This document shows, one piece after another, positions 43,429 through 57,574 of a stretch of 64,000 bases of DNA (positions within the stretch are counted from its first letter, which is position 1; every line of letters starts with the position of its first letter). Source of the stretch: Verrucomicrobiales bacterium (GTDB lineage: Bacteria; Verrucomicrobiota; Verrucomicrobiia; Verrucomicrobiales; DEV007). The translations under genes and the position numbers were made by a program. The stretch spans positions 62,001 to 126,000 of the forward strand of contig JARGPJ010000008.1 in NCBI GenBank assembly GCA_029212615.1, in the 5' to 3' direction. Under the pieces are notes generated by a model. It saw only the letters and a list, made by a program, of their open reading frames with translations, ran no database searches and had not been told where the DNA came from.

Positions 43429-45129
43429 TCAGGTGGCATCTTTTTTGTTCTTCGAAATAAATCCGATGATTCCAATGACAAAGAGAATGGCGAGGACTGC
43501 GATGCCGACTTTACCCATCGGAAAGGAGCCGAGGTTCTTGTCTTTAATCGCCCAGATCGATCCGAAGGTCGCCAGTCCGGTTGCAATGAACATGAGAACG
43601 TTCCAGATAACACGCTTGCCGCCGGTGGGCATCGCATTGCCGAGGAGCTTCTTCGAATTCATCATGAGGAGGAAAATGAAGTAGGCGATCGGGAGGAGCG
43701 AGCTGCCGATCACCGAGGTGGGGACGGCAAAGGCGGCCTTCGACTCCGCTGTCCAGATGTAGGGACTGCAGAGGCCGATGAATCCCGGAATGAGACTCCC
43801 GAGGAAGTGCAGCTTTTTGTCACCGGGGCGTCCCATGGCCTCGCAAAGGCAGAAACCATTGATCAACATGAGAATGATGATCGTTGAAAGAGCCATGCCG
43901 AGAACTCCGATGCCGAAGATGATTTTCCCAATGCCGGGGCCGGCCAGTGAGGAGAGCGATTTGGCGAGGTCGGAATCTTTCCGGTCCACGAGCATCGCCG
44001 CCATCCGGCGGTCTTCGAGTGGAAGCGCGTCGCGGAGTTCGGCCACTTTCGCTTCGAGCGCTTTGCCTTCGAGACCATTAAGATCGGTGGCATATCGCGT
44101 TGAAACGAATTTGTCAGCGACGCTGGCAAAGCCGGGCTCCTTTCCGGCGATAACCGTTCCGTCTTCATTCAGGATATCATTCGTTTTGGCGTGAAACTGA
44201 CTGGCCGCTGCGATCACAATACATGCTGTCGCGATCACGAAAGGGATGACGAGGCCGGTACCGAGATCAAAAATAGCGAGTCCGCGGTGATGACCTCCCC
44301 AGCCTTTTCGAAGCATGGAGTAGGGGAGGAGAAAGGTCATGTTGATCCCGACCGCCGTGCCGAAGGCGGCGATCACTTTGCTTTTCTGCACGCTGGAAAC
44401 GCTCTCACGCCAAATGGCGCCACTTTCTTCACCCGTTGCCGCGATCGCCACCTCGATGGCCGGAGCGGGATCACGGATATCTGAAAGATTGGGAATGAAG
44501 CCGGTGAGGATCTCACCCCAGTTCAAATCACCCATCATGGTGAGGCGAACGACGACGAGAAAGAACGAGACCACGACGATCCCGACCATTGTCTTGAGGA
44601 TGCCTTCAAATATTTTGACTCCTTTGCTGTCGGAATCATAGGCACGAACAACCAGTGCCGCAGCGATGAGAAGTACGACACCAACGATCCATTCCGTGGC
44701 TTTTACTCCTTCCAGTGAGGGAATCAGGTTTTGTTGCACGGCACCGGTCCCGAGAGCGAACTGTGGGAGGCACCAGACAATATTAGCCATCATCGCTGCG
44801 ATGAGCCAGGCCCAGCCCAGTACCGGGCTGACGTGCTCGTTGATCGCAGCAAAGGGGCGTTTTCCCGTGGCGAGGGTGACGTAGGCGATTGCGCTGAGCA
44901 TCACCACACCGAGAATCATCGCGAGGGGTTGCAGCCACATCAAGTTGTAGCCCATCATCACTCCGAGGAAGAGTGCTCCTGCGAGGGAGCCGCCCCCCAG
45001 CGTGATCGCGGCCTGAAGCCAGCCCGGTCCGGTCTTCTTTGTATAGTATTTGAGGCGGGCACCGAGAGGCTGCGTGCTGAGAGCTTCGAGCTCCGCGACC
45101 TCCTGCTGGTTGACTTCTGGTTCGCTCAT
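43429..45129 (-). CDS. Nramp-like transporter without canonical metal ligands
   Basis: A 566-residue inner-membrane protein with about 11 helices and the overall plan of the Nramp family (KKTGPGWLQAAI start; internal repeats). The canonical helix-1 DPGN motif reads TLGGGS here, and the helix-6 MPH motif reads INMTFLLPYSML, so the usual Asp, Asn and Met/His metal ligands are missing. A hydrophilic insert of about 70 residues, rich in charged residues (FHAKTNDILNEDGTV to DRKDSDLAKS), lies between two helices in the C-terminal half. Substrate could be a divalent metal coordinated differently, or something else. It may be co-transcribed with the oxidoreductase and epimerase genes downstream. Confidence 0.78.
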   Translation of the reverse strand: MSEPEVNQQEVAELEALSTQPLGARLKYYTKKTGPGWLQAAITLGGGSLAGALFLGVMMGYNLMWLQPLAMILGVVMLSAIAYVTLATGKRPFAAINEHVSPVLGWAWLIAAMMANIVWCLPQFALGTGAVQQNLIPSLEGVKATEWIVGVVLLIAAALVVRAYDSDSKGVKIFEGILKTMVGIVVVSFFLVVVRLTMMGDLNWGEILTGFIPNLSDIRDPAPAIEVAIAATGEESGAIWRESVSSVQKSKVIAAFGTAVGINMTFLLPYSMLRKGWGGHHRGLAIFDLGTGLVIPFVIATACIVIAAASQFHAKTNDILNEDGTVIAGKEPGFASVADKFVSTRYATDLNGLEGKALEAKVAELRDALPLEDRRMAAMLVDRKDSDLAKSLSSLAGPGIGKIIFGIGVLGMALSTIIILMLINGFCLCEAMGRPGDKKLHFLGSLIPGFIGLCSPYIWTAESKAAFAVPTSVIGSSLLPIAYFIFLLMMNSKKLLGNAMPTGGKRVIWNVLMFIATGLATFGSIWAIKDKNLGSFPMGKVGIAVLAILFVIGIIGFISKNKKDAT

Positions 45130-45290
45130 GAAAAAATCCGGGGATATAGGGGTGGTTGAAAACGTTGCGCGATCTTAACGACTCACCTCTGTGCGTCAAG
45201 AACCGGCACCGGCGCATCCCGTTGCGGATTTTGGTCACCCTCATGCAGGACTGTCAGGGCGGGATGAATTGGGTGCTCCGGGTTTTGAGA

Positions 45291-45382
45291 AGGGACAGGT
45301 TATTTATCGAGGTTATTTATCGAGAAGGGATAGGAAGATCAGATAGATAACCTGTCCCTGTGAAATCTGTCCCTGTGAAATC
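45291..45382. repeat. Inverted pair of short repeats (copies 1, 2 and a partial)
   Basis: AGGGACAGGTTATTTATC (45291-45308) and GATAGATAACCTGTCCCT (45342-45359) are inverted copies with one mismatch, 33 bases apart. The second is followed by two overlapping copies of CTGTCCCTGTGAAATC (45352-45367 and 45367-45382). They fill much of the gap between the Nramp-like and DUF1549/1553 genes. The rest of that gap (45130-45290) shows no gene. Confidence 0.85.
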
Positions 45383-45395
45383 GAGAGGGAGCTGT

Positions 45396-47330
45396 CTATT
45401 TTATGTAAATGAACCGGGCCGTATTCAGCGCCGCAATCGAAATATCTCTGAAGGCGGCTTCTTCATCCCTGGTAAGGGCAGGAAGCAGCCTTTCGCGTTC
45501 AGCGCTTGTTGGGAATCGACTGAATAGTCCGAGGAATATTGCGTCGAGTTGCTCACTTGCCCCTTTGTTCGCTCCAACGGTTCGTGCATATTTTGAGTAA
45601 GGATTCACAAGGGCGGTACTCAACTCACCATTGAGAAGTGCGAGTGCCTGCGGGACAGAGGCATGTCTGTTTGCGTTATTTGCATTGAGCCGGTCGGACT
45701 GGCCGAAGTCTCGCAAAAAGTGCCCCCGGGGCGCAGGCGATGAAAGCTCGCAGGCCCGGTAAAGTTGGTAGTGTGTTGCTTTCCATTCGTCAAATAACGC
45801 CGCGCCGGCAAGCGCCGGGAATCCGGGTTCGTGGCGAAAGCGGTTAAGGCTTGCGAAAAACGCTTTCTGTTTTTCGGCGAGGGCATCGGCCTTGTTCGAA
45901 GGGAGCCTTCCGCTGGAGGAGGTAAGCTTGCGCCCTTCGGAGGATCCTAGCCATTTCATCACTCCGAGAGGGTTGTCATCGGGCATTTTCCCGGCGCGAA
46001 AGCGAACATCGGATAGATAACGCTCCCGATAGATCGCCGATTTCAGGTTGGGGCGTTCTCCATCTTCAGTGATGAACATGACGAGGGAATCCCATAGTTG
46101 TTCAGCTGACATGCGGCGAAGCAGTGGACCCTGGAAATAGTAGGGCTCACCCGGAGCAATGTTCTTCGCGGTGGTTTCACGTTGGTAGACCTTTGAATTC
46201 AGCACGGTGCGGAGAAAGTCCTTCAGGTCGAAGTCATTGCCAACGAGTTGCTGAATGAGAACCTCTTCCAGTTCCGGGGTAAATGACGGGGCGCCATCGC
46301 GAATATCATCCGTATCGATGACCAGTGACCTGCCGAATAGTTCTTCCCAGAGACGATTCACGACGACGCGGGCGAAGCGGGGATTCCGGGGCGAGGCCAT
46401 CCAGCGGGCAAATTCCTCGACCGTGCTGGCTTTCGGGGCAAGGCCGGAAGTGGAACCCGGCACAATTTGGGGAGTGATGACATCTCCGGGTGATGCGTCC
46501 GGATACTGATAATCGTGCGGAAGGCGGAGCGGCCAGTCGCGTTCTGCTGTGGTCGCAAATCGCATCGGGGTCGTAACCCGGTTGATGGCGACTTTAAGGC
46601 CGGACGGCACAGGGTCGGGAGAGCGGGTGATTTGCTCGTAAACTTCGGGGTATTTGAGCGTGCGAACTGGATACGTGAAGGCCGCCATTCGGTAGAAATC
46701 CATCTGAGTCCAATGATCGAAGGGGTGATCGTGGCATTGAGCGCATTCAATCCGGGTGCCGAGAAAGATTCGCATGGTGATCGCAAAATGATCCAGCGGC
46801 ATCCCGAAATCACGTTGGTAAAATCCGACTGCCCCGGCATTCTCGGGCTCCCAGACGTTTCCGGTCCGACTCACCAAATCGATGACGAAATCGTCATAGG
46901 GTTTGTTTTCACGAAGGGCCTGCAGAAGCCATTCAGAATAGGCTGAGCCGACAATGCTGCTGCGGGTGATTTCCCCGTCGGTCGTCAGGCGGAGCAGGTC
47001 CGACCAGAAATGGAACCAGTGTTTTGAATAGCCGTCCGAACCCAGGAGCATTTCAATGAGCATGCTCCGTAGGTTGATATCCGATGAAGTGAGGAATGAT
47101 TTTGCTTCGTCAATGGTTGGCAGACGGCCAATGGCGTCCAAATACACACGCCGAAGGAAAGTGGCGTCATTTACTAATGAGTTCGGGGCGATCCCATGAG
47201 CAGATAGTTCTGCGGCAACCGCTGAATCAATCAAGTTTGCCGGATCGTTTGCCGTCAGGAGTAGTGGCAACCAGCAAAGGGTGATCGAAAGCAGGGTATG
47301 CTTAAATCCGGGAAGAAACTTCTGAACCAC
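45396..47330 (-). CDS. DUF1549/DUF1553 domain protein (PSD1-like)
   Basis: The product is 644 residues with a signal peptide (about 1-27); start codon is GTG 47330 because no ATG lies nearby in frame. An N-terminal DUF1549 region (LRRVYLDAIGRLPTIDEAKSFL) contains the IECAQCHDHPFDHW motif, a CxxCH that could bind haem c. The C-terminal DUF1553 region (VNRLWEELFGRSLV, RMSAEQLWDS) completes the pairing that is typical of Planctomycetota and Verrucomicrobiota. Usually an extra cytochrome domain is N-terminal in the larger versions. Its biochemical role is not known; such genes often neighbour DUF1501 genes, but none is seen here. Confidence 0.9.
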   Translation of the reverse strand: MVQKFLPGFKHTLLSITLCWLPLLLTANDPANLIDSAVAAELSAHGIAPNSLVNDATFLRRVYLDAIGRLPTIDEAKSFLTSSDINLRSMLIEMLLGSDGYSKHWFHFWSDLLRLTTDGEITRSSIVGSAYSEWLLQALRENKPYDDFVIDLVSRTGNVWEPENAGAVGFYQRDFGMPLDHFAITMRIFLGTRIECAQCHDHPFDHWTQMDFYRMAAFTYPVRTLKYPEVYEQITRSPDPVPSGLKVAINRVTTPMRFATTAERDWPLRLPHDYQYPDASPGDVITPQIVPGSTSGLAPKASTVEEFARWMASPRNPRFARVVVNRLWEELFGRSLVIDTDDIRDGAPSFTPELEEVLIQQLVGNDFDLKDFLRTVLNSKVYQRETTAKNIAPGEPYYFQGPLLRRMSAEQLWDSLVMFITEDGERPNLKSAIYRERYLSDVRFRAGKMPDDNPLGVMKWLGSSEGRKLTSSSGRLPSNKADALAEKQKAFFASLNRFRHEPGFPALAGAALFDEWKATHYQLYRACELSSPAPRGHFLRDFGQSDRLNANNANRHASVPQALALLNGELSTALVNPYSKYARTVGANKGASEQLDAIFLGLFSRFPTSAERERLLPALTRDEEAAFRDISIAALNTARFIYIK

Positions 47331-47437
47331 ACATAAATGATCCGGTAATCCTTCGTAGAATAAACGGACTAATCGCCCCTGATGACGTTATCCCGTCCGA
47401 AGATCAACGGGTATTGTTTATCAAGGCTGAAGGCGAT

Positions 47438-48526
47438 TCAAGGTGCCACCGTTACCGATCCGGGTTGGCCGCGGAAGGCGCTGATGATCAGGTTACTTCC
47501 GGGAGAACCCACGTGGTAGTGATAGCCGCGCTTTTCATCGTAGTGGCCGCCGCATTCGTCCAGATCCCCGGGAGTGTTGCCCTCTTCGTCAAGGTGGGCA
47601 AAGAGACCGAAGCCGTCGAGGGCATAGCCGATCATGGGAGCATGGCCATCGGGCTGGGCAATCTCTTTGGTGTGACCGGTTGCGGCGTGGTAGTGGTATC
47701 CTTCATGGGGATTGATGTGGCCGCCTGCATCATCAAAGGGGGCAATGGTGTGGGCTGCAATGATTGCCTCGAGCGGCGCGGGAGGATCGAAGTTAACTCC
47801 GTTAAAGGCGACACCGATTCCACCCTGCCCTGCTCCTCGCCCGCCGCGGGGGCGCGGTGGGGCTTCGTGCGATTCGTGATGACCCTCTTCGTCGTGATGG
47901 TGGGGAGGCGGCCCGCCTTTTTCGCCTTTTTCGCCGGGCCCACCGGGACCTCCACCAATGAACAGGGGTTCATCAAGAAGGACCGGGTTCACGGGAATGA
48001 CGTAGGTGGTTATCTTGTCAGCGACCCATTCGGGGCGGCCTTCGACAACATAATGGTGGTAGTCCGGATCAACGTCCGGGCGGGCGGCTGCTTCAAAAGC
48101 CTCTCTGGTATCCGTGATTCGTATGGATCCATCTTCACGATAAAGCTTCCACTCCGGATCGTTGTAGAGTTCGGCAATGTTTTTAACGAAGGGGCCATCG
48201 ACGTCATAGATTTGACCGTCTTTCAGCCAGATCCCGCCGGCTTTTTTGTCGTCCGTGATCGTTTTCGGGGCCCATGGTCCCATTTGGTGTTCGTGTGGTT
48301 TGGAGTAGGCCTGGATCACGTAGCATAAGGCAGTGGAACCATCGGAAAGAGTGCGTTCCTCCTTTACGATCTCGCCGACAAGAGCTTCTGAAATAAAGTG
48401 TGACGGGTCTACCGCAACGACACGATTTTCTGTCACTGGCTTAGTTTCTGGACCGTCTTTAGAGCAGGAGACGCCGGAAATGACGCAGAGGAGGGCTGTC
48501 AGTGGGACGAGGAAAGGGCGCTTCAT
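47438..48526 (-). CDS. YHYH-domain lipoprotein
   Basis: The product is 362 residues. The signal peptide ends in a lipobox (SGVSC, Cys21). The YHYH domain is in the C-terminal half, with GYHYHAATGH and KRGYHYHVGS motifs, and IGYALDGFGLFAHLD. The middle of the protein has a low-complexity stretch of Gly/Pro/Lys followed by a long His/Glu run (residues about 200-240), which may bind metal. YHYH proteins are secreted, of unknown biochemical function. No partner genes are visible. Confidence 0.83.
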   Translation of the reverse strand: MKRPFLVPLTALLCVISGVSCSKDGPETKPVTENRVVAVDPSHFISEALVGEIVKEERTLSDGSTALCYVIQAYSKPHEHQMGPWAPKTITDDKKAGGIWLKDGQIYDVDGPFVKNIAELYNDPEWKLYREDGSIRITDTREAFEAAARPDVDPDYHHYVVEGRPEWVADKITTYVIPVNPVLLDEPLFIGGGPGGPGEKGEKGGPPPHHHDEEGHHESHEAPPRPRGGRGAGQGGIGVAFNGVNFDPPAPLEAIIAAHTIAPFDDAGGHINPHEGYHYHAATGHTKEIAQPDGHAPMIGYALDGFGLFAHLDEEGNTPGDLDECGGHYDEKRGYHYHVGSPGSNLIISAFRGQPGSVTVAP

Positions 48527-48651
48527 TTCGTAGGTTGCGTTTTAGTGGTCAGCGAACCTACCACCTTACCCCGTGATGGCGCAAGGTCTGGCCCCCACCG
48601 GAGAACGCAAAGAAGGGACAGGTTAATTATGCTAAGGAGGGACAGGTTAAT
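48527..48651 (+). repeat. Two direct repeats (copies 4 and 5) upstream of a gene fragment
   Basis: AGGGACAGGTTAATTAT (48614-48630) and AGGGACAGGTTAATT (48638-48652) lie in the same orientation, 24 bases apart. The first is preceded by GAGAACGCA (48601-48609), which also precedes the copy next to the transposase (49900-49908). The second copy directly adjoins the gene fragment that follows. Confidence 0.85.
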
Positions 48652-48948
48652 TTTTACGGTTACAACGATGCGAATTTTGCCCGTTGCGCTCATAAAGTTG
48701 TCGCCGCTGTCTCAATGGTAGTGAATCATCCAGACTGGAAGCTCACGAAGGTTTCAGTTCACGGCGAGGGTGAAAATGCAGCAGTGGATCTCGCTGCGAA
48801 ATGCTTTGCCGGGGGGTGATCAATGGGCTTCAGATTGATCTGAGGGGGGCGATTAGAGCCGGTAGACGATTTTAGGGATCACAATATGGTTCACGGATCC
48901 GTGAAATACGGTGATGTCGAAGGGCTTTGCAATGCTGTGATTCAATAG
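48652..48948 (+). pseudogene. Decayed 3' fragment of the acetyl-xylan-esterase-like gene
   Basis: This stretch reads FYGYNDANFARCAHKVVAAVSM and on to KYGDVEGL, the same order as the last 98 residues of the hydrolase at 39260-41194 (bases about 40898-41194). The identity is clear in both parts, but a frame-breaking deletion with stop codons (near 48819) splits it and substitutions are common, so it is not functional. Only the C-terminal end is present and the homology begins at a repeat copy. The remaining gap up to 49158 shows no gene. Confidence 0.85.
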
Positions 48949-49158
48949 GGTTAAATCGCCAGCTTAGTCCCTACCAAATATCACTTGAGGAAGGTCGTTG
49001 AATTTCAATCAGATGAAATGTCGGAATAGAAATCGCCTGGAGGGACATGCTCCGCTATATCCGCGTTGCCACAAAAGAGATGTTCCCTCAGTCGCTTAAG
49101 ATTTGCACAAGTTACCCTAACCGAAACGAACCGATAATCTGCAGGTTTTTGTAGGATA

Positions 49159-49728
49159 CTAGAGCACTTTCAAAGCAACCAGCGTTGGCTTGTTTAAGGC
49201 GCCTGTCACCGCGATTCGGTGATCATTTTGGAATTGGCGAATAGCTGATTTTGTCATCTTCCCAATAATTCCATCAATGCTCCCTGAATAGTAACCACGA
49301 TTCTTTAGCTCTATTTGCGCCGCCACCTCAATGGGATAAGTGGCAAACGGTGCGCACGCGATATATGCTGGCCGGGCTAGAACTTTCCACCCAGCATACA
49401 CACCCAGGGGAGCTACGTAGAGCGTATTCACGGTGACGGGAGCAGAATGATAAATTCCGCCGCGATAAACATATCCGCGCCTATAGCCGGTGAAACCTGC
49501 AGACACGCGAGTCGCAGTATTCCCATTCGGTCCTGTCACGGTCACTTTTCCTGCTCCAAATCGACCAACTCTCCCGCCAGACGCATCAATGGATCCCCCA
49601 TTCGGACCGGTAGCCGATACACTACCTCCCCCAAATCGCGGCCTGGCCTCTGCGGTCGCTATTGCCCCGAGTATGACCCATATGCAGAGCAGGAGAAATG
49701 TCGGGTTTGTGAACGGTCTCAAAGACAT
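49159..49728 (-). CDS. Secreted peptidoglycan-binding-domain protein
   Basis: The product is 189 residues from ATG 49728, with a signal peptide (about 1-28; the open frame extends to 49782 without benefit). A Gly/Ser-rich section contains the repeat TGPNGGSIDASGGRVGRFGAGKVTVTGPNGNTATR, with two TGPNG units. The C-terminal 60 residues are a PG_binding_1 domain (VAAQIELKNRGYYSGSIDGIIGKMTKSAIRQFQNDH) that binds peptidoglycan. It may anchor to the cell wall; no enzyme domain is seen. Confidence 0.72.
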   Translation of the reverse strand: MSLRPFTNPTFLLLCIWVILGAIATAEARPRFGGGSVSATGPNGGSIDASGGRVGRFGAGKVTVTGPNGNTATRVSAGFTGYRRGYVYRGGIYHSAPVTVNTLYVAPLGVYAGWKVLARPAYIACAPFATYPIEVAAQIELKNRGYYSGSIDGIIGKMTKSAIRQFQNDHRIAVTGALNKPTLVALKVL

Positions 49729-49899
49729 GTTTCTCAGTGAGGATTGTTGTTTTTTATTCAATACAGTGTTGCTCGTGTTCATGACAGCTAACTAAACTCA
49801 CGGGCACTCTGATTGGTTACACTTTTTATTTCTTTCGACTCCAGGGAGCCAGTCGAAGATGAAAATGAACTTCCGCGTGGGCCCTTCAGCACTCTTGCA

Positions 49900-49934
49900 G
49901 AGAACGCAGACGAGAAGGGACAGGTTGTTTATTG
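49900..49934 (+). repeat. Repeat copy 6, left flank of the transposase gene
   Basis: AGGGACAGGTTGTTTATTG (49916-49934) is preceded by GAGAACGCA (49900-49908). It lies 47 bases before the transposase start codon, in the opposite orientation to the copies that follow the gene. Confidence 0.85.
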
Positions 49935-49981
49935 TTCAAAATAGCAGTTGAAATGCAAGTGTTCACTTTTACACTTTAAGC

Positions 49982-51013
49982 ATGAGGTATTCCCGGATCA
50001 AAGGTGAAGGACTCCGTTACTTTCACTGCATCTCCCGTGTCGTTGACCGGCGGTTCATTTTTAACGACGCCGAAAAGGAATATTTTGTCTCCCTCATGCG
50101 GAAACTGGAAGCCTTTCACGGCATGCGGGTGGTCACCTATTGCGTCATGTCGAACCACTTCCACCTGCTCATCGAGGAGCCGGATCGCGAGACGCTCCCG
50201 CCTCTCGACCGGGAAACCCTCCTCAAGCGCATGGGCTTTCTCTACAAGGCGCACACCATCCGAACCGTCCGCGAAGAACTGAATCGTGCCGCCCAATCAG
50301 GCAACACCCAATGGGAACAGGAAATTCTGGACCGCTACCGCCGTCGCATGGGCGACCTCTCCGCCTTCATGAAAGACCTCAAACAGCGGTTTTCCCAATG
50401 GTACAACCGTCGTGAAGGTCGGCGCGGCACCCTATGGGAAGATCGCTTTAAGAGCCTCCTCGTTGAAGGTGACACCAAAGCACTCATGACCGTCGCTGCC
50501 TACATCGATCTGAATCCGATTCGTGCCGGCATCGTTGAAAAAGTGGAATCCTATCGCTGGTGCGGCTATGCCTCGGCCGTGGCAGGAAACCGCTGGGCCC
50601 GTGAGGGGCTGAGACGGATCTGGGGACAATCTCCGGCCATCAGCGCCGGGGAAGACGAACTGGATTGGGACACGGTGAGCCCTCAATACCGACTCTGGTT
50701 GTATCAGGAAGGGGTCGAAAAGAAGCAGGCTGAGACCGGAAAGAAAGCCAGGCGCAAAGGCTTCACCGAAGAGGAGCTTGAAGAAACGATCGCGTCAGGC
50801 GGGCAACTTCCCCTGCCGTCTGTCCTGAGAAAACGAGTGCGTTACTTCAGTGACGGAGCCGTTCTCGGCAGTGCTGATTTTGTAAATCGAATCTTCGCGC
50901 ATCAAAGGGAAAAGCACGGGCTGAAGCGAAAGACCGGAGCGAGGCGGATGAAAGACGCCGCCTGGGAGGGACTTCATGTCATGCGCGACCTCACCGTCGA
51001 CCGGATTGGCTGA
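49982..51013 (+). CDS. REP-associated tyrosine transposase (RAYT)
   Basis: The product is 343 residues, longer than the 165 of the E. coli RAYT and longer than most IS200 TnpA. The HUH motif is CVMSNHFHLLIEEP (H59, H61); the catalytic tyrosine is probably Y174 in AAYIDLNPIRAGIV, a motif conserved among these proteins. Other signatures are LKQRFSQWYNRREGRRGTLWEDRFKS. RAYTs are single-copy, domesticated Y1 enzymes that nick short palindromic repeats (REPs) and may help spread or control them. Here inverted copies of the local repeat flank the gene and more lie on either side. The last 130 residues are an extension of unknown use. Confidence 0.92.
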   Translation: MRYSRIKGEGLRYFHCISRVVDRRFIFNDAEKEYFVSLMRKLEAFHGMRVVTYCVMSNHFHLLIEEPDRETLPPLDRETLLKRMGFLYKAHTIRTVREELNRAAQSGNTQWEQEILDRYRRRMGDLSAFMKDLKQRFSQWYNRREGRRGTLWEDRFKSLLVEGDTKALMTVAAYIDLNPIRAGIVEKVESYRWCGYASAVAGNRWAREGLRRIWGQSPAISAGEDELDWDTVSPQYRLWLYQEGVEKKQAETGKKARRKGFTEEELEETIASGGQLPLPSVLRKRVRYFSDGAVLGSADFVNRIFAHQREKHGLKRKTGARRMKDAAWEGLHVMRDLTVDRIG

Positions 51014-51230
51014 AAAAAGGTTTAAGCGGAGGATAAAAGGAGCACTTCCCGGGGATACCAGTGCCTGGACGTCTGTTCCAGTGCGACTGAGGTGGCTGAG
51101 GGCTGCCTTATTGAGGGATTATCGCGCTCAGGCAGGAGAAAAATTGCATTATTCGTCGGGGCCGAGTCGATGTTCGCTGCGTCGAAGCAATATGGAATAG
51201 AGCCGCATCAGGAGAAGCATGAGGGCTCAA

Positions 51231-51293
51231 TAGATAACCTGTCCCTGTGCAGGGGGGCTTTCCGGGGATCGGGGCTATAAATAACCTGTCCGT
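51231..51293 (-). repeat. Repeat copies 7 and 8, right flank of the transposase gene
   Basis: TAGATAACCTGTCCCTG (51231-51247) and the variant ATAAATAACCTGTCCGT (51277-51293) point opposite to the copy left of the transposase gene. The rest of 51014-51341 shows no clear gene; short reading frames there match nothing I know. Confidence 0.82.
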
Positions 51294-51341
51294 GCTATGC
51301 TCTTGAGGAGTAGCTCGGGGGAGAGGAGCGAGTTCGGCCAG

Positions 51342-52202
51342 CTAGCCCAACTCGAAGGTGGTGATTCCGAAAGTCCTGTCCCAATCCGTTGCCGGGGGCT
51401 TGCCGTGGTACATCCTTGCGCAGCCGAACACCTCACGCATTCCGTGGCGCTCTGCCAGGGCCATCGCACCAGCATTTCGCTCGGGGGCGTCGAGCGAGAT
51501 GGCCTGCCCGTCAGCGCGGTCGCTTAGCGCGGCAAACAAAGACTGAGCGATGTCCGGGTTGTCGGCAAAGAGCGGGCCGATCTTGAATCCCTCCCGGCAT
51601 TCTCGCATTACCCCGTAGCCCTGCAATTTCTTACCGACCATCAGTCCGATGGCGGAGGCGTTCGGTATCTCGATCCAGCGGCGGAGGAATTCTGTTCGAT
51701 CGCATCCAAAACAGTTCCGGTCATATCGTGCCAATTCATCAAACGGTACCTCATCAAGTCCAACAATCCCGGGATCTGGTGTGCAGGTTTGTCCGACCCC
51801 TTCCATTCGCAGGTTGCGGTGGCTGAACTCAAAGCCGCCGCGCCCGTACCATTCCTGCATGTCGAAGACGCCATCCATGCCGATCGCGGCGTCTGCGTCC
51901 AATCGCCCGCGCAGGGTGTCGCGGCGGTGATGCCAGAGTTTCGCCCCAATCCCTCGTCCGCGTAAATCTTCGCGCACGATAAAGAACCCCATGAAACCGA
52001 ACGCCCGGCCGTAGGAAACGATCGATCCCGTTGCGACGAGCTCGCCCTCGTATTCGGCACCGAGATAGCCATCCGGATCAGTCTGCCAAAACACGTCGGC
52101 GTCGTGTAACCCGGGGTTCCATCCTTCCGCCGCTGCCCAGTCCACGGCGACGTTGAATTCATCGCGCGTGAGGGGCCGTAGAATAATGGAGTCGAGGTTC
52201 AT
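51342..52202 (-). CDS. Double GNAT-family acetyltransferase
   Basis: The product is 286 residues. The first GNAT half holds YLGAEYEGELVATGSIVSYGRAFGFMGFFIVREDLRGRGIG, with the acetyl-CoA pyrophosphate loop RxxGxG (RGRGIGAKL). A second, shorter GNAT-like half follows (VGKKLQGYGVMRECREGFKIGPLFADNPDIAQSLF), as in Acetyltransf_1 plus Acetyltransf_18 proteins. The substrate (small molecule or protein amine) is unknown. It lies just past the transposase flank and could be cargo of this region, though many such genes are ordinary. Confidence 0.85.
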   Translation of the reverse strand: MNLDSIILRPLTRDEFNVAVDWAAAEGWNPGLHDADVFWQTDPDGYLGAEYEGELVATGSIVSYGRAFGFMGFFIVREDLRGRGIGAKLWHHRRDTLRGRLDADAAIGMDGVFDMQEWYGRGGFEFSHRNLRMEGVGQTCTPDPGIVGLDEVPFDELARYDRNCFGCDRTEFLRRWIEIPNASAIGLMVGKKLQGYGVMRECREGFKIGPLFADNPDIAQSLFAALSDRADGQAISLDAPERNAGAMALAERHGMREVFGCARMYHGKPPATDWDRTFGITTFELG

Positions 52203-52398
52203 CGGAGAGGGGGCTCTGACATATTCAGTTTGGTATCGCTGTCCGCAAACGGCGCGGCGGGATCTAAAAATTTATACCTCCGATTTCAGTCTCGAGAGAA
52301 GGTGAGAGTGGCGATCCTGTGAACCCTTTCCTGACAGAAGGTTAGAGCTATGGCGCGTGGTCTACCGCGCCGCCTTCAGTGCCTTGTTCTGTGCCTGT

Positions 52399-52833
52399 CT
52401 AATGTCCCGATTTTTTGATCGTTATCGACTCACCCTCGATACCGGCGTAGAAGACGATAATCTCAGCCGGTACATTCCCGTCATTTCTCCCGTAGTGCCA
52501 TGTGTCCACCACCTCAATGATGGAATCATTTGGCTTGAGGCGTAACACTTTACCCGATTTTGTCGTGACAGTGAGTTCGCCTTTGAGCAAAACACCAGCG
52601 TTGATGCCTGGATGCCTATGCATCGGTAGCGTGTGTTTCGGCGGTACCGTTATTCTCAAAATGGTAACCTCTGGCGTTCCTCTTTCGTATGGCGGCAATT
52701 TCTGGCCGTCCCAACTCTTTGTCGACTTGGCCAACTGAGTCGATTTAACACTGGTGGCATACTTTGGTGACGCACAACCAACGAACAGGAAGGCGAAAAG
52801 AATGCCGTATAGAGATTTGTTCATTATCTTCAT
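52399..52833 (-). CDS. Cupin-domain lipoprotein
   Basis: The product is 144 residues. The signal peptide ends in a lipobox (FVGC, Cys20), so it is probably membrane-anchored. The cupin core has motif 1 PMHRHPGINAGVLLKGEL (metal His pair and Glu-type position) and motif 2 VVDTWHYGRNDG. Such proteins may bind small molecules or act as dioxygenase-like enzymes; no substrate can be named. ATG 52833 was chosen; ATG 52824 is also possible. A short hairpin (52352-52371) lies after the stop. The 196 bases between this gene and the GNAT show nothing else. Confidence 0.7.
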   Translation of the reverse strand: MKIMNKSLYGILFAFLFVGCASPKYATSVKSTQLAKSTKSWDGQKLPPYERGTPEVTILRITVPPKHTLPMHRHPGINAGVLLKGELTVTTKSGKVLRLKPNDSIIEVVDTWHYGRNDGNVPAEIIVFYAGIEGESITIKKSGH

Positions 52834-53015
52834 GCAAGGTCAAAGGCTGACCGCCCCGATACCGGGATCGCAGCCTTGCCGGGAGTGTAGTGATTCGAAT
52901 ACGGAAAGTCAATCGACTCGCGGCGGGTATCGGCTGGTTTGTTAGCAATTCGTCGATCTACCCTGAAGATAGTCGAAACATGATGGTTGAAACCTCACTC
53001 CTGATCCTCTTATGG

Positions 53016-53471
53016 CTAGGGTTGAGGGTAGTGGATTCCATACTTGGCGCTAATCGCGACAATCTTGCTCATGTCCGGTTCCCCTCCGCTGGAAAACTCA
53101 TCAGCGCACTCCGAGAAGAAATTGTCAAATCCTCCGGGCATCGTCTGAATCAACATCTGTAACGGTTCTTTATTCGGATTTCTAAAGGTGTGGATAGTGC
53201 CGCGAGGCATGAACACTGCGGTTCCGGCCGGCACTTCGATCCAGCTCCCATCCTTCAGGAATTCAGCTGGCCCTGAAAGAGGCCAGAACCACTCGTCCTC
53301 GTTGTCGTGATAGTGAGGCGGGGGCCCGCCGCCGGGAGGGGTGACATTAGTCCACATGGTCAACTTTCCCCCTGTATCTTCGACTCCCAAGTGAAGGATC
53401 ATTTCATCGCCAAACGCGCGAATGACACGTGCTTCGTTTGGTCGGCGAATGGTAGTAGGGGAGTCAATCAT
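53016..53471 (-). CDS. Cupin-domain protein
   Basis: The product is 151 residues from ATG 53471; the open frame also begins with a GTG at 53513, adding 14 residues. Motif 1 is PPHYHDNEDEWFWPLSGPAEF and motif 2 PRGTIHTFRNPNKEPLQML, typical of cytosolic cupins related to quercetinase or sugar-binding types. No signal peptide is present in this start choice. It is the second cupin in 700 bases on the same strand; the two are not close in sequence. Function unknown. Confidence 0.72.
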   Translation of the reverse strand: MIDSPTTIRRPNEARVIRAFGDEMILHLGVEDTGGKLTMWTNVTPPGGGPPPHYHDNEDEWFWPLSGPAEFLKDGSWIEVPAGTAVFMPRGTIHTFRNPNKEPLQMLIQTMPGGFDNFFSECADEFSSGGEPDMSKIVAISAKYGIHYPQP

Positions 53472-53568
53472 AGCAGTCTGGATTTTTTTGTTTGGCGGGA
53501 CATCACAGCTCACAGAATCCCTGGCCGGGAGCTGGCGTTGATATCCGGGTTGAGTGTCATAGATCGTA

Positions 53569-53587
53569 ATAAATAGCCTGTCCCTGT
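53569..53587 (-). repeat. Repeat copy 9
   Basis: AATAAATAGCCTGTCCCTGT is a variant copy with one change in the core; flanking bases TCCTCTGTGTCCTCT echo, in the complementary sense, the GAGAACGCA region next to other copies. Confidence 0.6.
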
Positions 53588-53612
53588 CCTCTGTGTCCTC
53601 TACTGTCCTCTT

Positions 53613-55538
53613 TCATCGTTTGGCTGCTGGCGCTGCCACAGATACATCTACATCTGAACATGTTGCAGTGATCCTCAGATGGGAATGCGAGGGTAAACGG
53701 TCGTCACTGACCCGGTTGTCTCTGCCAGTGACGTTCTCGCTGTCTTCAAAATCAAAGCCAATGTGGTTCCCCGGCTCCGAGTAGACGCGCCAATCATTGA
53801 TCGTCGCTTCTACGAGGTTGTTGGCGAAGGTTGAGTCCTGGATAAATCTTATCGAGTAAGCTTGGTTCATGCGATTGTTGCACACGATGTTATTTTCGAT
53901 CGTAAGGTGCTTGTTCCAGTTCTTGACGTCGCCTTCCACGATAAAACTCGCTCTGTTGCAGTTGGCGATGAGATTGTTGCGGATAATACCCACGTCAATG
54001 GTGTCGTATTCAGCGTCCAGGCCAGTGCCGCTTAGATTCAGCCCCTTGCTACCACCATTGTAGATTCTGTTGCCTTCAATCCAGCAACGGTCCGAGTGCA
54101 TCCAGAGGCTATTCCGGAATGCACCCCGTATGGTCAGGTTGCGCACGACGGTTTGCGTGGTAGCTGCATCCAGGTCTCCGACTTCACCGGCATGGAAGGC
54201 GTCGTCACGGGTGTATTCTAAGACCAAGTTCTCCATCCAGCTCTTCTCGCCCTTGTTGTTAACCCCGCCGGAAGCAGCGCCCATGACGCGCCCCCCGGAG
54301 CGAACAAACTGGTTGTTGATGCAACGGATAAAGGGTTGGACATGCTTAACGATGAAATAGCGTCCGCGGCAGCCTTCCACCCGGCAGTTATTGATGACGA
54401 CATCCTCGCAACCGTTGAAGTTATTGAAGGCGTCACCACCCCGGTGGGATGTTACGGCCCAGCATCCAACCTTGAGTTCCTTTTCAAATCGCCCCCAGCT
54501 AGTGAGTTTGAGGTCAAACATTCCATCGCCACGTGCAGATTCAGCCCATGACTTCTCTATTGGATAGGAAACACCTTTGCTACCGATGCGCTGGTTGTTC
54601 TCCGCATCGAGGAAATAGATATCCTTGTAGTGCTTCATCTCTTCAAAGTTGCCGTACACCTCAGTATTAACCTTGACCGTGATTGTTCCCCTGGCGCGGT
54701 CGATGGAGGTGATCTTGCCCGCATACTGCATGAGTGAGTCAGTTGTATAATCGAGGGTGAAGTTTTTCACTTGGATGTGCCGGGATCCCCGGGCAAAGAA
54801 GAATCCAGCATCGCGTGCCAGGGTTATGACCTCCTTCTTGCCCCGTTTTCTCCTTTTGGTAGCCTTGTCCTCCTGAGCCAAAGCTGCTGCCTTCAGAATG
54901 ATTTTGGATCCTCGTCCATCAATAATGAGATTTCTCGCCCCTGTCACATTCAGGAGAGTTCCTTCACCGGGCTCCTGCCTCTTTCTTGTGTCTTTCAGGG
55001 TTTGGGTCAGATGAAAGGAATGCTTGACCGGGAAACGGAGCATGGCTCCCTTTCCGGCGTTCTCCCTGGCCATCGCCAGCTTTCTCTTGATGTCGTCATA
55101 GGAGTCATTCTTCAGGACATCGACAACGTAGGCTGGGTTTTTGATCTCGAAGTGCTCTGATGCTGAGACCGCCTTCCGGTTGCCGTTTGAATCCCTGTAG
55201 AGCACCCGCCAGAAATATTGTTGTCCCGCTTTTAATTCTATCGTTGGACTGTAATGGGCGATGCATGCAGGGACCGTGTCCTGATCCACTACATGCTTGA
55301 AGGATGAGTCCTCCGCGATCTGAACGTGATAGGCCCCATCGAAGGGATAAGCGACGGCATCATCCCAATTGAACCGGGGCATGGTTTGATAAACGGTATC
55401 GGAAGCAGTTGGATAGGTCGCGTGAGGCGCCCCGGCCCATGCAGAACCGCACATCATAAGCACCAGGGCCGCAGTTGGAACTGCAGCACCAGGATTCAGC
55501 TTTACGGGATTCTGCATCATCATCAGGTGGCACTTCAT
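53613..55538 (-). CDS. Secreted right-handed beta-helix protein with N-terminal Ig-like domain
   Basis: The product is 641 residues from ATG 55538 (the open frame extends to 55721). A signal peptide ends near residue 35 (SAWA). An N-terminal region of about 100 residues looks like a fibronectin/Ig-like domain (YWRVLYRDSNGN). Then come many short strand repeats with VVINNCRVEG, VVRNLTIRGAFRNSLWM, IIRNNLIANCN and ENNIVCNNRM, typical of parallel beta-helix proteins such as pectate lyases and polysaccharide-binding proteins. No catalytic Asp/Lys pattern can be fixed by eye. Probably extracellular and acting on glycans; the exact class is uncertain. Confidence 0.8.
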   Translation of the reverse strand: MKCHLMMMQNPVKLNPGAAVPTAALVLMMCGSAWAGAPHATYPTASDTVYQTMPRFNWDDAVAYPFDGAYHVQIAEDSSFKHVVDQDTVPACIAHYSPTIELKAGQQYFWRVLYRDSNGNRKAVSASEHFEIKNPAYVVDVLKNDSYDDIKRKLAMARENAGKGAMLRFPVKHSFHLTQTLKDTRKRQEPGEGTLLNVTGARNLIIDGRGSKIILKAAALAQEDKATKRRKRGKKEVITLARDAGFFFARGSRHIQVKNFTLDYTTDSLMQYAGKITSIDRARGTITVKVNTEVYGNFEEMKHYKDIYFLDAENNQRIGSKGVSYPIEKSWAESARGDGMFDLKLTSWGRFEKELKVGCWAVTSHRGGDAFNNFNGCEDVVINNCRVEGCRGRYFIVKHVQPFIRCINNQFVRSGGRVMGAASGGVNNKGEKSWMENLVLEYTRDDAFHAGEVGDLDAATTQTVVRNLTIRGAFRNSLWMHSDRCWIEGNRIYNGGSKGLNLSGTGLDAEYDTIDVGIIRNNLIANCNRASFIVEGDVKNWNKHLTIENNIVCNNRMNQAYSIRFIQDSTFANNLVEATINDWRVYSEPGNHIGFDFEDSENVTGRDNRVSDDRLPSHSHLRITATCSDVDVSVAAPAAKR

Positions 55539-55868
55539 TTTGATCTCTTTTCGTGGCGAGGCAATTTGGCTGGAAATTGGATTCGCTCCGGCCATGTCAG
55601 TTGACTTAGGTGGTGTGATCTGAGGTTCATTTTGTGGGCTATCTCGCTCTTGAGGCGAGACCAATCCTGCATGTTGAAGCGTTAAAATAATCAAGAAGCG
55701 AACCAAAACAGAATACGGCATGAATACAAAAGTATATCTCAGACTCGACGTCCAGAAAGCTCCAGCGTAGTTGCCGCCGAACCTGCCGACGGAAGCGACC
55801 TTCTATTCTGCGCCAGGTGGAGTGGGACAAACCTTTCCGTCGAATGTGGGCTCCTCGAATTCTTGATG

Positions 55869-56064
55869 GAACCTGTCCCTCTAATCATCAGGTTTGAGGG
55901 TCATAGATAGCCCAGGGTCATAGATAACCTGTCCCTCCAATCTTCTACTAATCATCAGGTTTGAGGGTCATAGATAACCTGTCCCTCCAATCCACTCCAA
56001 TCCAAACCACGCTTCGACTTCGTGGACTATCGATGAATCCTGTCCCTCCCATCCTGTCCCTCCC
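55869..56064 (-). repeat. Expanded cluster of repeat copies and longer direct repeats
   Basis: Copies of the core lie at 55869-55880, 55921-55936 and 55971-55986. They are embedded in longer direct repeats: a 29-base unit at 55881-55909 and 55948-55976, and another at 55914-55942 and 55964-55992. A 14-base unit ATCCTGTCCCTCCC is repeated at 56037-56050 and 56051-56064. The rest of 55539-56135 shows no gene. Confidence 0.85.
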
Positions 56065-56135
56065 ATCCGGAAAGCTGAAACTCATCTTTAAAAATTGTCG
56101 ATGGAATCCGGCCCTTCAATCGTGTTTGCTGAAGG

Positions 56136-56804
56136 GTGCCTTTTCTGTCGGTCATCATCCCCACGCTGAATGAAGCGGAGAACCTTCCCGCGACGCTGGA
56201 TTGTTTTCGTGCCGCCGGCATTGAAGAGGTGATCGTGGTGGACGGGGGGAGTGAAGACGGAACGGTTGAGCGGGCCGTGGCGGGAGGATCCCGCGTTCTG
56301 ACGGCTCCGGAACCGGGTCGGGCGGGACAAATGAATCTCGGAGCGCGTGAGTCGTCGGGCGAGGTGTTACTTTTTTCTCATGGCGACACCCGGATCCCTT
56401 CTCAGACTCTCAGGAATCTGGAGTTCGTGTTGAAGGAATCCCCTGAACTGGTCGGGGGTGGATTCGCGAGGCGTTTCGAATCCCGCTCCTGCCTGCTGAG
56501 GTTCACGGCGTGGTGCTCGGACTTTCGCGGTCGCTGGTGGGGGCTGTTTCTGGGGGATCAGGGGATCTTCGTGAAGCGATCAGTGTTTGAGGCGCTGCGG
56601 GGCTTTGATGAAGCGGTTGTTCCGGGAGAGGATCTTGATTTTTCCTATCGCATGGCGAAGGCGGGACGGACCTGTCTGGTCGGGCCGCCGGTGATGAGCT
56701 CTGCGCGACGCTTCGAAAAGCGGGGGGCTTTTCATCAGACACGGCTCGACCTGGTTGCGGCAAGACAAATCCTGAAGGCGGCGAAAGTGAGGACCCCGGC
56801 ATGA
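56136..56804 (+). CDS. Family 2 glycosyltransferase, TIGR04283-like
   Basis: The product is 222 residues, from GTG 56136. The GT-A motifs SVIIPTLNEAENLPATL and VVDGGSEDGTVERA (nucleotide-binding), LFSHGDTR (the DXD-like position) and EDLDFSYRMAKAG fit the short TIGR04283 group of membrane-associated glycosyltransferases, whose products are unknown. The start has no clear Shine-Dalgarno sequence. The stop overlaps the start of the mlaE-like gene, so translation may be coupled. Confidence 0.85.
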   Translation: MPFLSVIIPTLNEAENLPATLDCFRAAGIEEVIVVDGGSEDGTVERAVAGGSRVLTAPEPGRAGQMNLGARESSGEVLLFSHGDTRIPSQTLRNLEFVLKESPELVGGGFARRFESRSCLLRFTAWCSDFRGRWWGLFLGDQGIFVKRSVFEALRGFDEAVVPGEDLDFSYRMAKAGRTCLVGPPVMSSARRFEKRGAFHQTRLDLVAARQILKAAKVRTPA

Positions 56805-57574
56805 AACTACTCCGAAGGCTTATCTCTTATCATGGACAGCTCGGGATGCTCTTCGGGGAGGTCGCAGGGGCGCTTTTTCGCGGGCATGTTCGCTGGCGAC
56901 TCGTGATGTCACAGATTGTGGCAATCGGATTTGGCTCTCAGCTGGTGGTGATGATCACGGGAGCGTTCACCGGAGCGGTTTTCGCCGCGCAGTCGTTCTT
57001 TAAGTTCAGTGAGATTGGGATGGCGTCGGCAACGGGGCCGGTGGTTTCGATTGCGATGTGTCGCGAGCTCGGGCCGGTCCTTGCCGGGCTTATGGTCGCG
57101 GGGCGAATGGGGGCATCGATGGCGGCTGAGATCGGGACAATGAAAGTGACCGAGCAGATCGACGCCTTGCGGTCAATGGGGGTGAGTCCGGTCGATTACC
57201 TCGTTGTGCCGAGGATGCTGGCGATTCTGATTTCGATGCCGATTCTTGTCGCTGAGAGCATCGCCCTCGGGATTCTCGCCTCCGATGTATTGACGACGAA
57301 GATTTTCGGGGTGCCGGAAGTCTGGTACCGGTATCAGCTCATGAGTCACACGGGACCGGGAGATGTGATGAGCGGGGTCATCAAAGGGGCTTTCTTCGGT
57401 GTTCTCATCGCGTTGATTTCTTGTCGGCACGGGCTTCGCACGCAGGACGGTGCGGTTGGCGTTGGCGTTTCCACGACGAGGGCGGTGGTGGATTCGAGCC
57501 TCGCGATTCTCATTTCGAATCTCATCCTTACTTTGTTGCTCAATGAATTTTTCCCTATGGTTTCTCTGAACTAA
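56801..57574 (+). CDS. mlaE: MlaE-family ABC permease
   Basis: A 257-residue inner-membrane permease of the Mla-type phospholipid or lipid transport system. Five or six helices are seen with the family landmarks FSEIGMASATGPVVSIAMCRELGPVLAGLMVAGRMGASMAAEIGTMKVTEQIDALRSMGVSPVDYLVVPR, and the C-terminal LLLNEFFPM end. It works with the ATPase (next gene, overlapping TAATG) and the MCE protein after it. Confidence 0.93.
   Translation: MKLLRRLISYHGQLGMLFGEVAGALFRGHVRWRLVMSQIVAIGFGSQLVVMITGAFTGAVFAAQSFFKFSEIGMASATGPVVSIAMCRELGPVLAGLMVAGRMGASMAAEIGTMKVTEQIDALRSMGVSPVDYLVVPRMLAILISMPILVAESIALGILASDVLTTKIFGVPEVWYRYQLMSHTGPGDVMSGVIKGAFFGVLIALISCRHGLRTQDGAVGVGVSTTRAVVDSSLAILISNLILTLLLNEFFPMVSLN

Follow-up and report, generated by a model that had tools for sequence, protein, structure and literature searches.

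The 64-kb stretch of Verrucomicrobiales DNA analyzed here (the window) holds a gene for a REP-associated tyrosine transposase (RAYT) amid short intergenic repeats, which raises the question of what these repeats are and how they relate to the enzyme. The original prediction described more than a dozen copies of one core between 45.3 and 56.1 kb around a lone RAYT, less hairpin-like than classic REPs and possibly recognized by a different rule. The window, the host genome, and related genomes were searched for the core, for copies and homologues of the gene, and for sequence features at their borders.

Distribution of the core repeat

With the core AGGGACAGGTTA as query, the window gave 7 exact matches, 11 at ≤1 mismatch, and 14 at ≤2 mismatches, the latter being confined to positions 45,291–56,061. 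Both orientations were present, and the rest of the window contained no match at ≤2 mismatches, as the original prediction had it. Shuffling the window 100 times yielded 2.55 matches on average and 8 at maximum, compared with the 14 found. Their location in intergenic gaps was borne out as well, since a reading of the ORF list placed 14 of 14 between likely genes. Two of these matches, at 49,916 and 51,235, form the left and right ends of the RAYT unit (Table 1). A comparison of positions 44,000–57,500 with Rfam gave no match. Within this region, a stretch of approximately 100 nt (52,836–52,936) showed short matches to nine genus genomes (73–90% identity over 43–98 nt) and was predicted to fold strongly as RNA (−38.4 kcal/mol, a value without shuffle comparison); it might represent a structured RNA or one more dispersed repeat.

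The genome-wide search for the core that had been proposed was carried out with the 4.55-Mb host genome (21 contigs). It revealed 41 exact copies of AGGGACAGGTTA versus none for the reversed control, and 78 versus 16 matches when one mismatch was allowed. Leaving aside the copies that terminate a RAYT copy or fragment, 32 exact copies remained; 18 of these were situated at most 10 kb away from one of six RAYT copies or fragments of the same type, a zone that comprises 2.2% of the genome. Thus, the refuting case of copies spread evenly and unlinked to the RAYT type did not apply; as predicted, the repeats belong to this type of RAYT and cluster near its copies. With neighboring copies collapsed, 8 of 19 were located within 10 kb of such a copy or fragment.

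Table 1. Features assigned in the window between 45,291 and 56,061
Feature	Position	Strand	Basis
Inverted doublet of cores, REPIN/MITE-like, hairpin fold	45,291–45,359	.	AGGGACAGGTTA search; folding z −5.2
Tandem duplication, 13-nt unit, begins 6–8 nt into core	45,297–45,324	+	Duplication scan
Tandem duplication, 15-nt unit, flank plus first 7–8 nt of core	45,352–45,382	-	Duplication scan
Direct pair of cores, 24 nt apart	48,614–48,649	+	AGGGACAGGTTA search
RAYT/TIRYT transposon unit, 1,331 bp	49,916–51,246	+	Boundaries common to four genome copies, flanks unrelated
Left terminal repeat (AGGGACAGGTTGTTTATTG)	49,916–49,934	+	
Two degenerate TGTTC-N4-GAACA-like boxes before start codon	49,935–49,973	+	2 mismatches each
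RAYT-type HUH tyrosine transposase gene, 343 aa	49,982–51,013	+	Pfam, NCBIfam, predicted fold
Right terminal repeat, inverted (AGGGACAGGTTATCTATTG)	51,228–51,246	-	
Extra core, 1 mismatch, just beyond right end of unit	51,282–51,293	-	AGGGACAGGTTA search
Single core, 1 mismatch	53,574–53,585	-	AGGGACAGGTTA search
Five-core cluster, two exact, local tandem repeats	55,869–56,061	-	AGGGACAGGTTA search, duplication scan

The RAYT gene and its terminal repeats

A Y1 transposase gene is indeed located amid the repeats, but it is lone only within the window. Four full copies were found on different contigs of the genome (protein identities of 100, 99, 98, and 98%), in addition to two RAYT fragments and three diverged homologues at 47–52% identity. 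When the four copies were aligned together with their flanks, matching began at GGGACAGGTT, 65 nt upstream of the start codon, and stopped at the inverted repeat of the far end, with unrelated sequence outside. The units thus bounded have sizes of 1,330–1,332 bp and carry terminal inverted repeats of about 19 bp with the sequence (A/G)GGGACAG (GGGGACAG at one of the four left ends); the tetranucleotide GTAG is absent from the terminal repeat. Because four near-identical units share common ends and have unrelated flanks, the alignment indicates that the unit has moved in its entirety. On the sequence evidence, the repeats are the terminal inverted repeats of a multi-copy mobile RAYT unit together with those of its non-autonomous derivatives. 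No target duplication was seen in the flanks of the four units. A 2.35-kb stretch beside the element gave no syntenic empty site in 33 genus genomes, where its longer matches were 66–74% alike, so that the limits given for the inserted sequence are provisional.

Properties of the predicted enzyme

The deduced protein scored 47.7 bits against the Pfam family Y1_Tnp, over its cut-off, and 68.7 bits against the NCBIfam model REP_Tyr_transpos, under the cut-off of 80; with this NCBIfam RAYT model, each of the 28 aligned members gave a match at E ≤ 0.001. The histidines of the HUH motif (H59 and H61) were invariant in the 28 sequences, as were Y174 and N178 of the class-2 tyrosine motif Y---NP, with P179 conserved at 90% or more. 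The predicted fold (mean pLDDT 80.8, pTM 0.83) was most similar to the E. coli RAYT in complex with a REP hairpin (4er8, E = 6.9e-5), followed by the transposases of ISDra2 and, more weakly, IS608. A C-terminal part of approximately 140 aa is present, with mixed confidence in the predicted model, and gave no match to an HTH family in Pfam at E ≤ 0.01.

Core types and homologues in related genomes

RAYT homologues (E ≤ 1e-20) were identified in 44 of 74 family genomes with up to 33 matches per genome, and exact copies of AGGGACAGGTTA in 25 of the 74. In 32 relatives from the genus, AGGGACAGGTTA gave 59 matches versus 14 for the reversed control, whereas outside the genus 9 matches were opposed to 12 for the control. 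The AGGGACAGGTTA core is thus, as judged from its distribution, a genus-level feature, and part of the matches in relatives is due to chance. Other core types were also found. The ACAA type (AGGGACAGACAA) was represented by 55 exact copies (control: 6) distributed over 15 of the 33 genus genomes and was absent from the host genome. The ACCT type (AGGGACAGACCT) had 21 exact copies in the host genome (control: 0), among them the left ends of its three diverged RAYTs. Small arrays of AGGGACAGACCT cores were noted at three loci of this genome (L203, L204, and L209), and inspection by eye placed AATAG or a near form before most AGGGACAGACCT copies, which may represent a target or an extension of the repeat.

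For 25 of 28 elements (three with unreadable left ends were dropped), protein identity correlated with left-end identity (Mantel r = 0.479, permutation P = 2e-4), a relation that common descent alone could give. The match between enzyme and core is not strict, as two members with 61% identity carry ACAA-type cores. In a different phylum, the gene for a homologue with 39% identity (Candidatus Aminicenantes, L030) is flanked by inverted GGGACAGACCC repeats, and six exact copies of GGGACAGACCCT are present in this genome (control: 0). The multi-copy groups of genomes G009, G012, and G051 showed no clear inverted right-end repeat, and only their left ends were used in the later counts. The thirteen RAYT copies of G051 (L107–L119), most of them about 92% alike, have the left-end motif GGGTC-N-GACC instead.

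Tandem duplications adjoining the cores

Tandem units of 7–40 nt abutting a core, arrays included, were scored as duplications. They adjoined 13 of 40 exact AGGGACAGGTTA sites in the host genome, 18 of 60 in relatives (7 of 68 sites were omitted; 61 were kept, 60 without identical contexts), and 11 of 55 ACAA-type cores, whereas the frequency at random positions away from GGGACAG was 11/3000 and 29/3000, and 18/3000 in E. coli. At the left ends of family RAYTs, the frequency was 13 of 47 versus 6 of 1002 control motifs, a comparison of the best motif per left end with single control motifs that favors the left ends somewhat. No tandem duplication was found at AGGGACAGACCT cores (0/20), at Aminicenantes-type cores (0/7), or at REPs in five 50-kb stretches of E. 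coli K-12 (0/22; REPs located by a sequence pattern). Given the first two of these results, such duplications do not characterize the group as a whole.

The borders of 35 upstream duplications with units of 8–20 nt were located (202 sites at ≤1 mismatch, under a looser rule, upstream only, and without random control). Twenty of them ended 1–3 nt inside the core and 15 ended 4–8 nt inside, with clusters at 1–2 and 6–8 nt; none ended at 9–12 nt. Seven downstream duplications were flagged, of which four begin at +5 to +8 and the remaining three at +11 to +12. In its complement, the core has C|T steps twice, at +1 and +7; the TnpAREPs that have been studied cut at C|T (PMC8266576). Thirty of the 35 borders fell within 1 nt of +1 or +7 (binomial P = 1.4e-6 versus a uniform distribution over 0–12, the zones having been picked after part of the data had been seen). 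A strict rule that allows borders only at C|T was rejected as too strong, since just 15 of 35 fell exactly at these positions.

We interpret the tandem duplications as putative scars that nicking and rejoining left behind. Slippage during replication or instability of the repeats, acting without the enzyme, is a possible but less likely source. It would agree with the arrays of 20–40-nt units that are likewise present at cores and with the two core types that have no duplications. What argues against it is that the border ambiguity of simple upstream duplications (possible microhomology) amounts to only 0–4 nt, that the borders are concentrated in two core zones, and that none of 22 E. coli REPs had a duplication.

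LexA-type boxes upstream of RAYT genes

The LexA-binding motif of Verrucomicrobia is reportedly TGTTC-N4-GAACA. Upstream of 65 distinct RAYT starts, this motif was present in perfect form in 9 cases, in 13 at ≤1 mismatch, and in 23 at ≤2 mismatches, whereas 613 other windows from the same loci gave 0, 1, and 27, respectively. Six perfect sites were found in the host genome (control: one). Three of them are RAYT promoters, with the motif 15–17 nt upstream of the start codon; the other three lie within open frames, none at a recognized SOS gene. The window's own RAYT has no good LexA-type box but only degenerate ones, whose score with a lexA-only matrix was reached in 3 of 1011 control windows. 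A possible link between box loss and bursts of copies was set aside, the numbers being too few.

From these counts we infer, more weakly than the mobility of the unit, that several family RAYTs may be repressed by LexA and that their transposition would rise after DNA damage. The left-end TGTTC-N4-GAACA might instead be a transposon hairpin, as at the ends of IS200/IS605 elements, a reading to which we assign a minor share of the probability. The motif lies inside the element, 24 of 44 base pairs flanking the motif are complementary compared with 11 expected by chance, and the three perfect sites apart from RAYTs sit in open frames. However, the motif also precedes, at the same place and with ≤1 mismatch, all five lexA genes that exceeded the family cut-off in seven genomes. 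Furthermore, TGGAC-N4-GAACA occurs 268–398 nt before the RecA domain of 7 of 7 recA genes, although this form was spotted afterwards and has two mismatches to TGTTC-N4-GAACA.

Short derivatives and their folding

A 76-bp form in the same genome (L023:2044–2119) retains both ends of the unit, and a form of approximately 400 bp (L011:2238–2639) has kept both ends plus the last 50 codons. Inverted core doublets of 58–90 bp are present in the window and on other contigs. By eye, GA precedes left ends and left-end-like copies. The positions of these deletion derivatives, inverted doublets, and solo ends indicate a concentration near the parent copies.

The inverted doublet at 45,288–45,362 had a predicted folding energy of −14.8 kcal/mol (z = −5.2 versus shuffles). 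Three inverted doublets gave z values of −3.0 to −5.9, and the 76-bp form only −1.7. Single cores and the direct pair reached 0 to −2.2 kcal/mol, at best equal to shuffles, and the left end of the window's unit folded only slightly better than shuffles (z = −0.9). The proposal that the repeats are less hairpin-like than classic REPs thus applies to single cores and the direct pair but not to inverted doublets such as the one at 45,288–45,362. A classic REPtron, in which a domesticated and immobile RAYT disperses palindromic REPs, would have the same nuclease fold; its REPINs resemble the inverted doublets, and some REPs are reported to cluster near RAYT genes (PMC2817692). It is nonetheless an improbable description of a gene with four near-identical full copies and a terminal repeat that contains no GTAG and forms no hairpin when single cores are folded. 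Segmental duplication or gene conversion in place of transposition is a very unlikely origin of the four copies, for although a central stretch of about 500 bp is identical or nearly so in all four and the ends differ more, suggesting some conversion, similarity ends at the terminal repeats and the flanks are unrelated.

Discussion

The element in the window is probably a small transposon of the TIRYT kind with inverted repeats of about 19 bp that would move units and derivatives via single strands and leave scars behind, with several of its family members perhaps repressed by LexA. In this process, a RAYT-type HUH single-strand nuclease would recognize a terminal repeat composed of the shared GGGACAG and a clade-specific inner part, and would nick single-stranded DNA near the outer border and 6–7 nt inside the core. 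Full units and derivatives would be moved through single-strand intermediates, and failed or repeated nick-and-join events could give rise to short tandem duplications with borders near the two nicking places. Release of LexA repression, the more weakly supported step, would raise the transposition of several family members after DNA damage. That Verrucomicrobiales RAYT/TIRYT elements in general are SOS-switched single-strand transposons that move whole units and MITE-like derivatives, with two fixed nicks and border-specific duplications that record cutting, is proposed only tentatively and is rather doubtful.

A parallel to SOS control is provided by ISDra2, whose transposition is triggered by radiation. 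LexA control, if true, would tie RAYT mobility to DNA damage. The duplication scars could reveal the cleavage sites of TIRYT-type enzymes from sequence alone; the literature passages found on TIRYT/RAYT group 1 contained no biochemistry. RAYTs are described as low-copy and apparently non-transposing (PMC6006769, PMC2817692). A still-mobile RAYT unit beside diverged relatives in one genome offers a natural comparison of mobility kept and lost. A paper on the LexA-binding motif of Verrucomicrobia exists (cited in PMC8565304), and a paper naming both RAYT and LexA lists rayT with sigma70 (PMC7606416). Literature searches gave nothing that joins REP-associated tyrosine transposases with tandem duplication and no description of LexA control of RAYTs. 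The duplication scars at cores and the LexA-type boxes before RAYTs may therefore be new relative to the literature found, such absence being no proof of novelty.

Comparison with known systems

In view of its inverted doublets and deletion derivatives, the window element is best classified, as far as sequence can place it, as a TIRYT/TIRtron of RAYT group 1 accompanied by MITEs and not as a GTAG-REP system. RAYT group 1 corresponds to TnpA_Y1 subclass 2.1 (PMC6006769). The expectation of a differing recognition rule was right insofar as the signal is unlike that of GTAG-REPs, but the kind is not new, since the TIRYT/TIRtron arrangement has already been named (PMC3733652). Shared with it are a RAYT-like enzyme with a long C-terminal part, inverted repeats instead of GTAG palindromes flanking the gene, and terminal repeats scattered as small families, dimers, or clusters. 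The TIRYT/TIRtron motif is GGGGWSAS in the majority, though not all, of the cases, and GGGACAG differs from it by one or two letters. Subclass 2.1 has a C-terminal HTH-like domain, whereas the window protein lacks a Pfam HTH match at the threshold given above. Unlike the TIRYT/TIRtron described, the unit found here is multi-copy and near identical, with deletion derivatives and duplication scars, and its relatives carry LexA-type boxes.

The RAYT/TnpAREP systems with GTAG REPs and REPINs (E. coli, Pseudomonas, and Stenotrophomonas) have in common with the window element the HUH fold, inverted doublets, a correspondence of enzyme and repeat, and in some cases local clustering; the class-2 enzymes share the HUH plus Y---NP motifs. 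In contrast to a REPtron, GTAG is missing here, the single repeat is no palindrome, and the enzyme gene is multiplied. Members of the IS200/IS605 family (IS608, ISDra2) resemble the element in the related nuclease fold, the multi-copy unit, and the lack of a visible target duplication. They differ from it in that the one-gene unit of the window has long terminal inverted repeats and a larger enzyme with the class-2 Y---NP motif. Their TnpA recognizes subterminal hairpins instead of inverted repeats; the window unit has inverted repeats and a left end that folds only slightly better than shuffles, and several relatives show a left-end palindrome. As in bacterial MITEs, the short forms retain both ends of the parent transposon, but the parent is here a RAYT-type single-strand enzyme.
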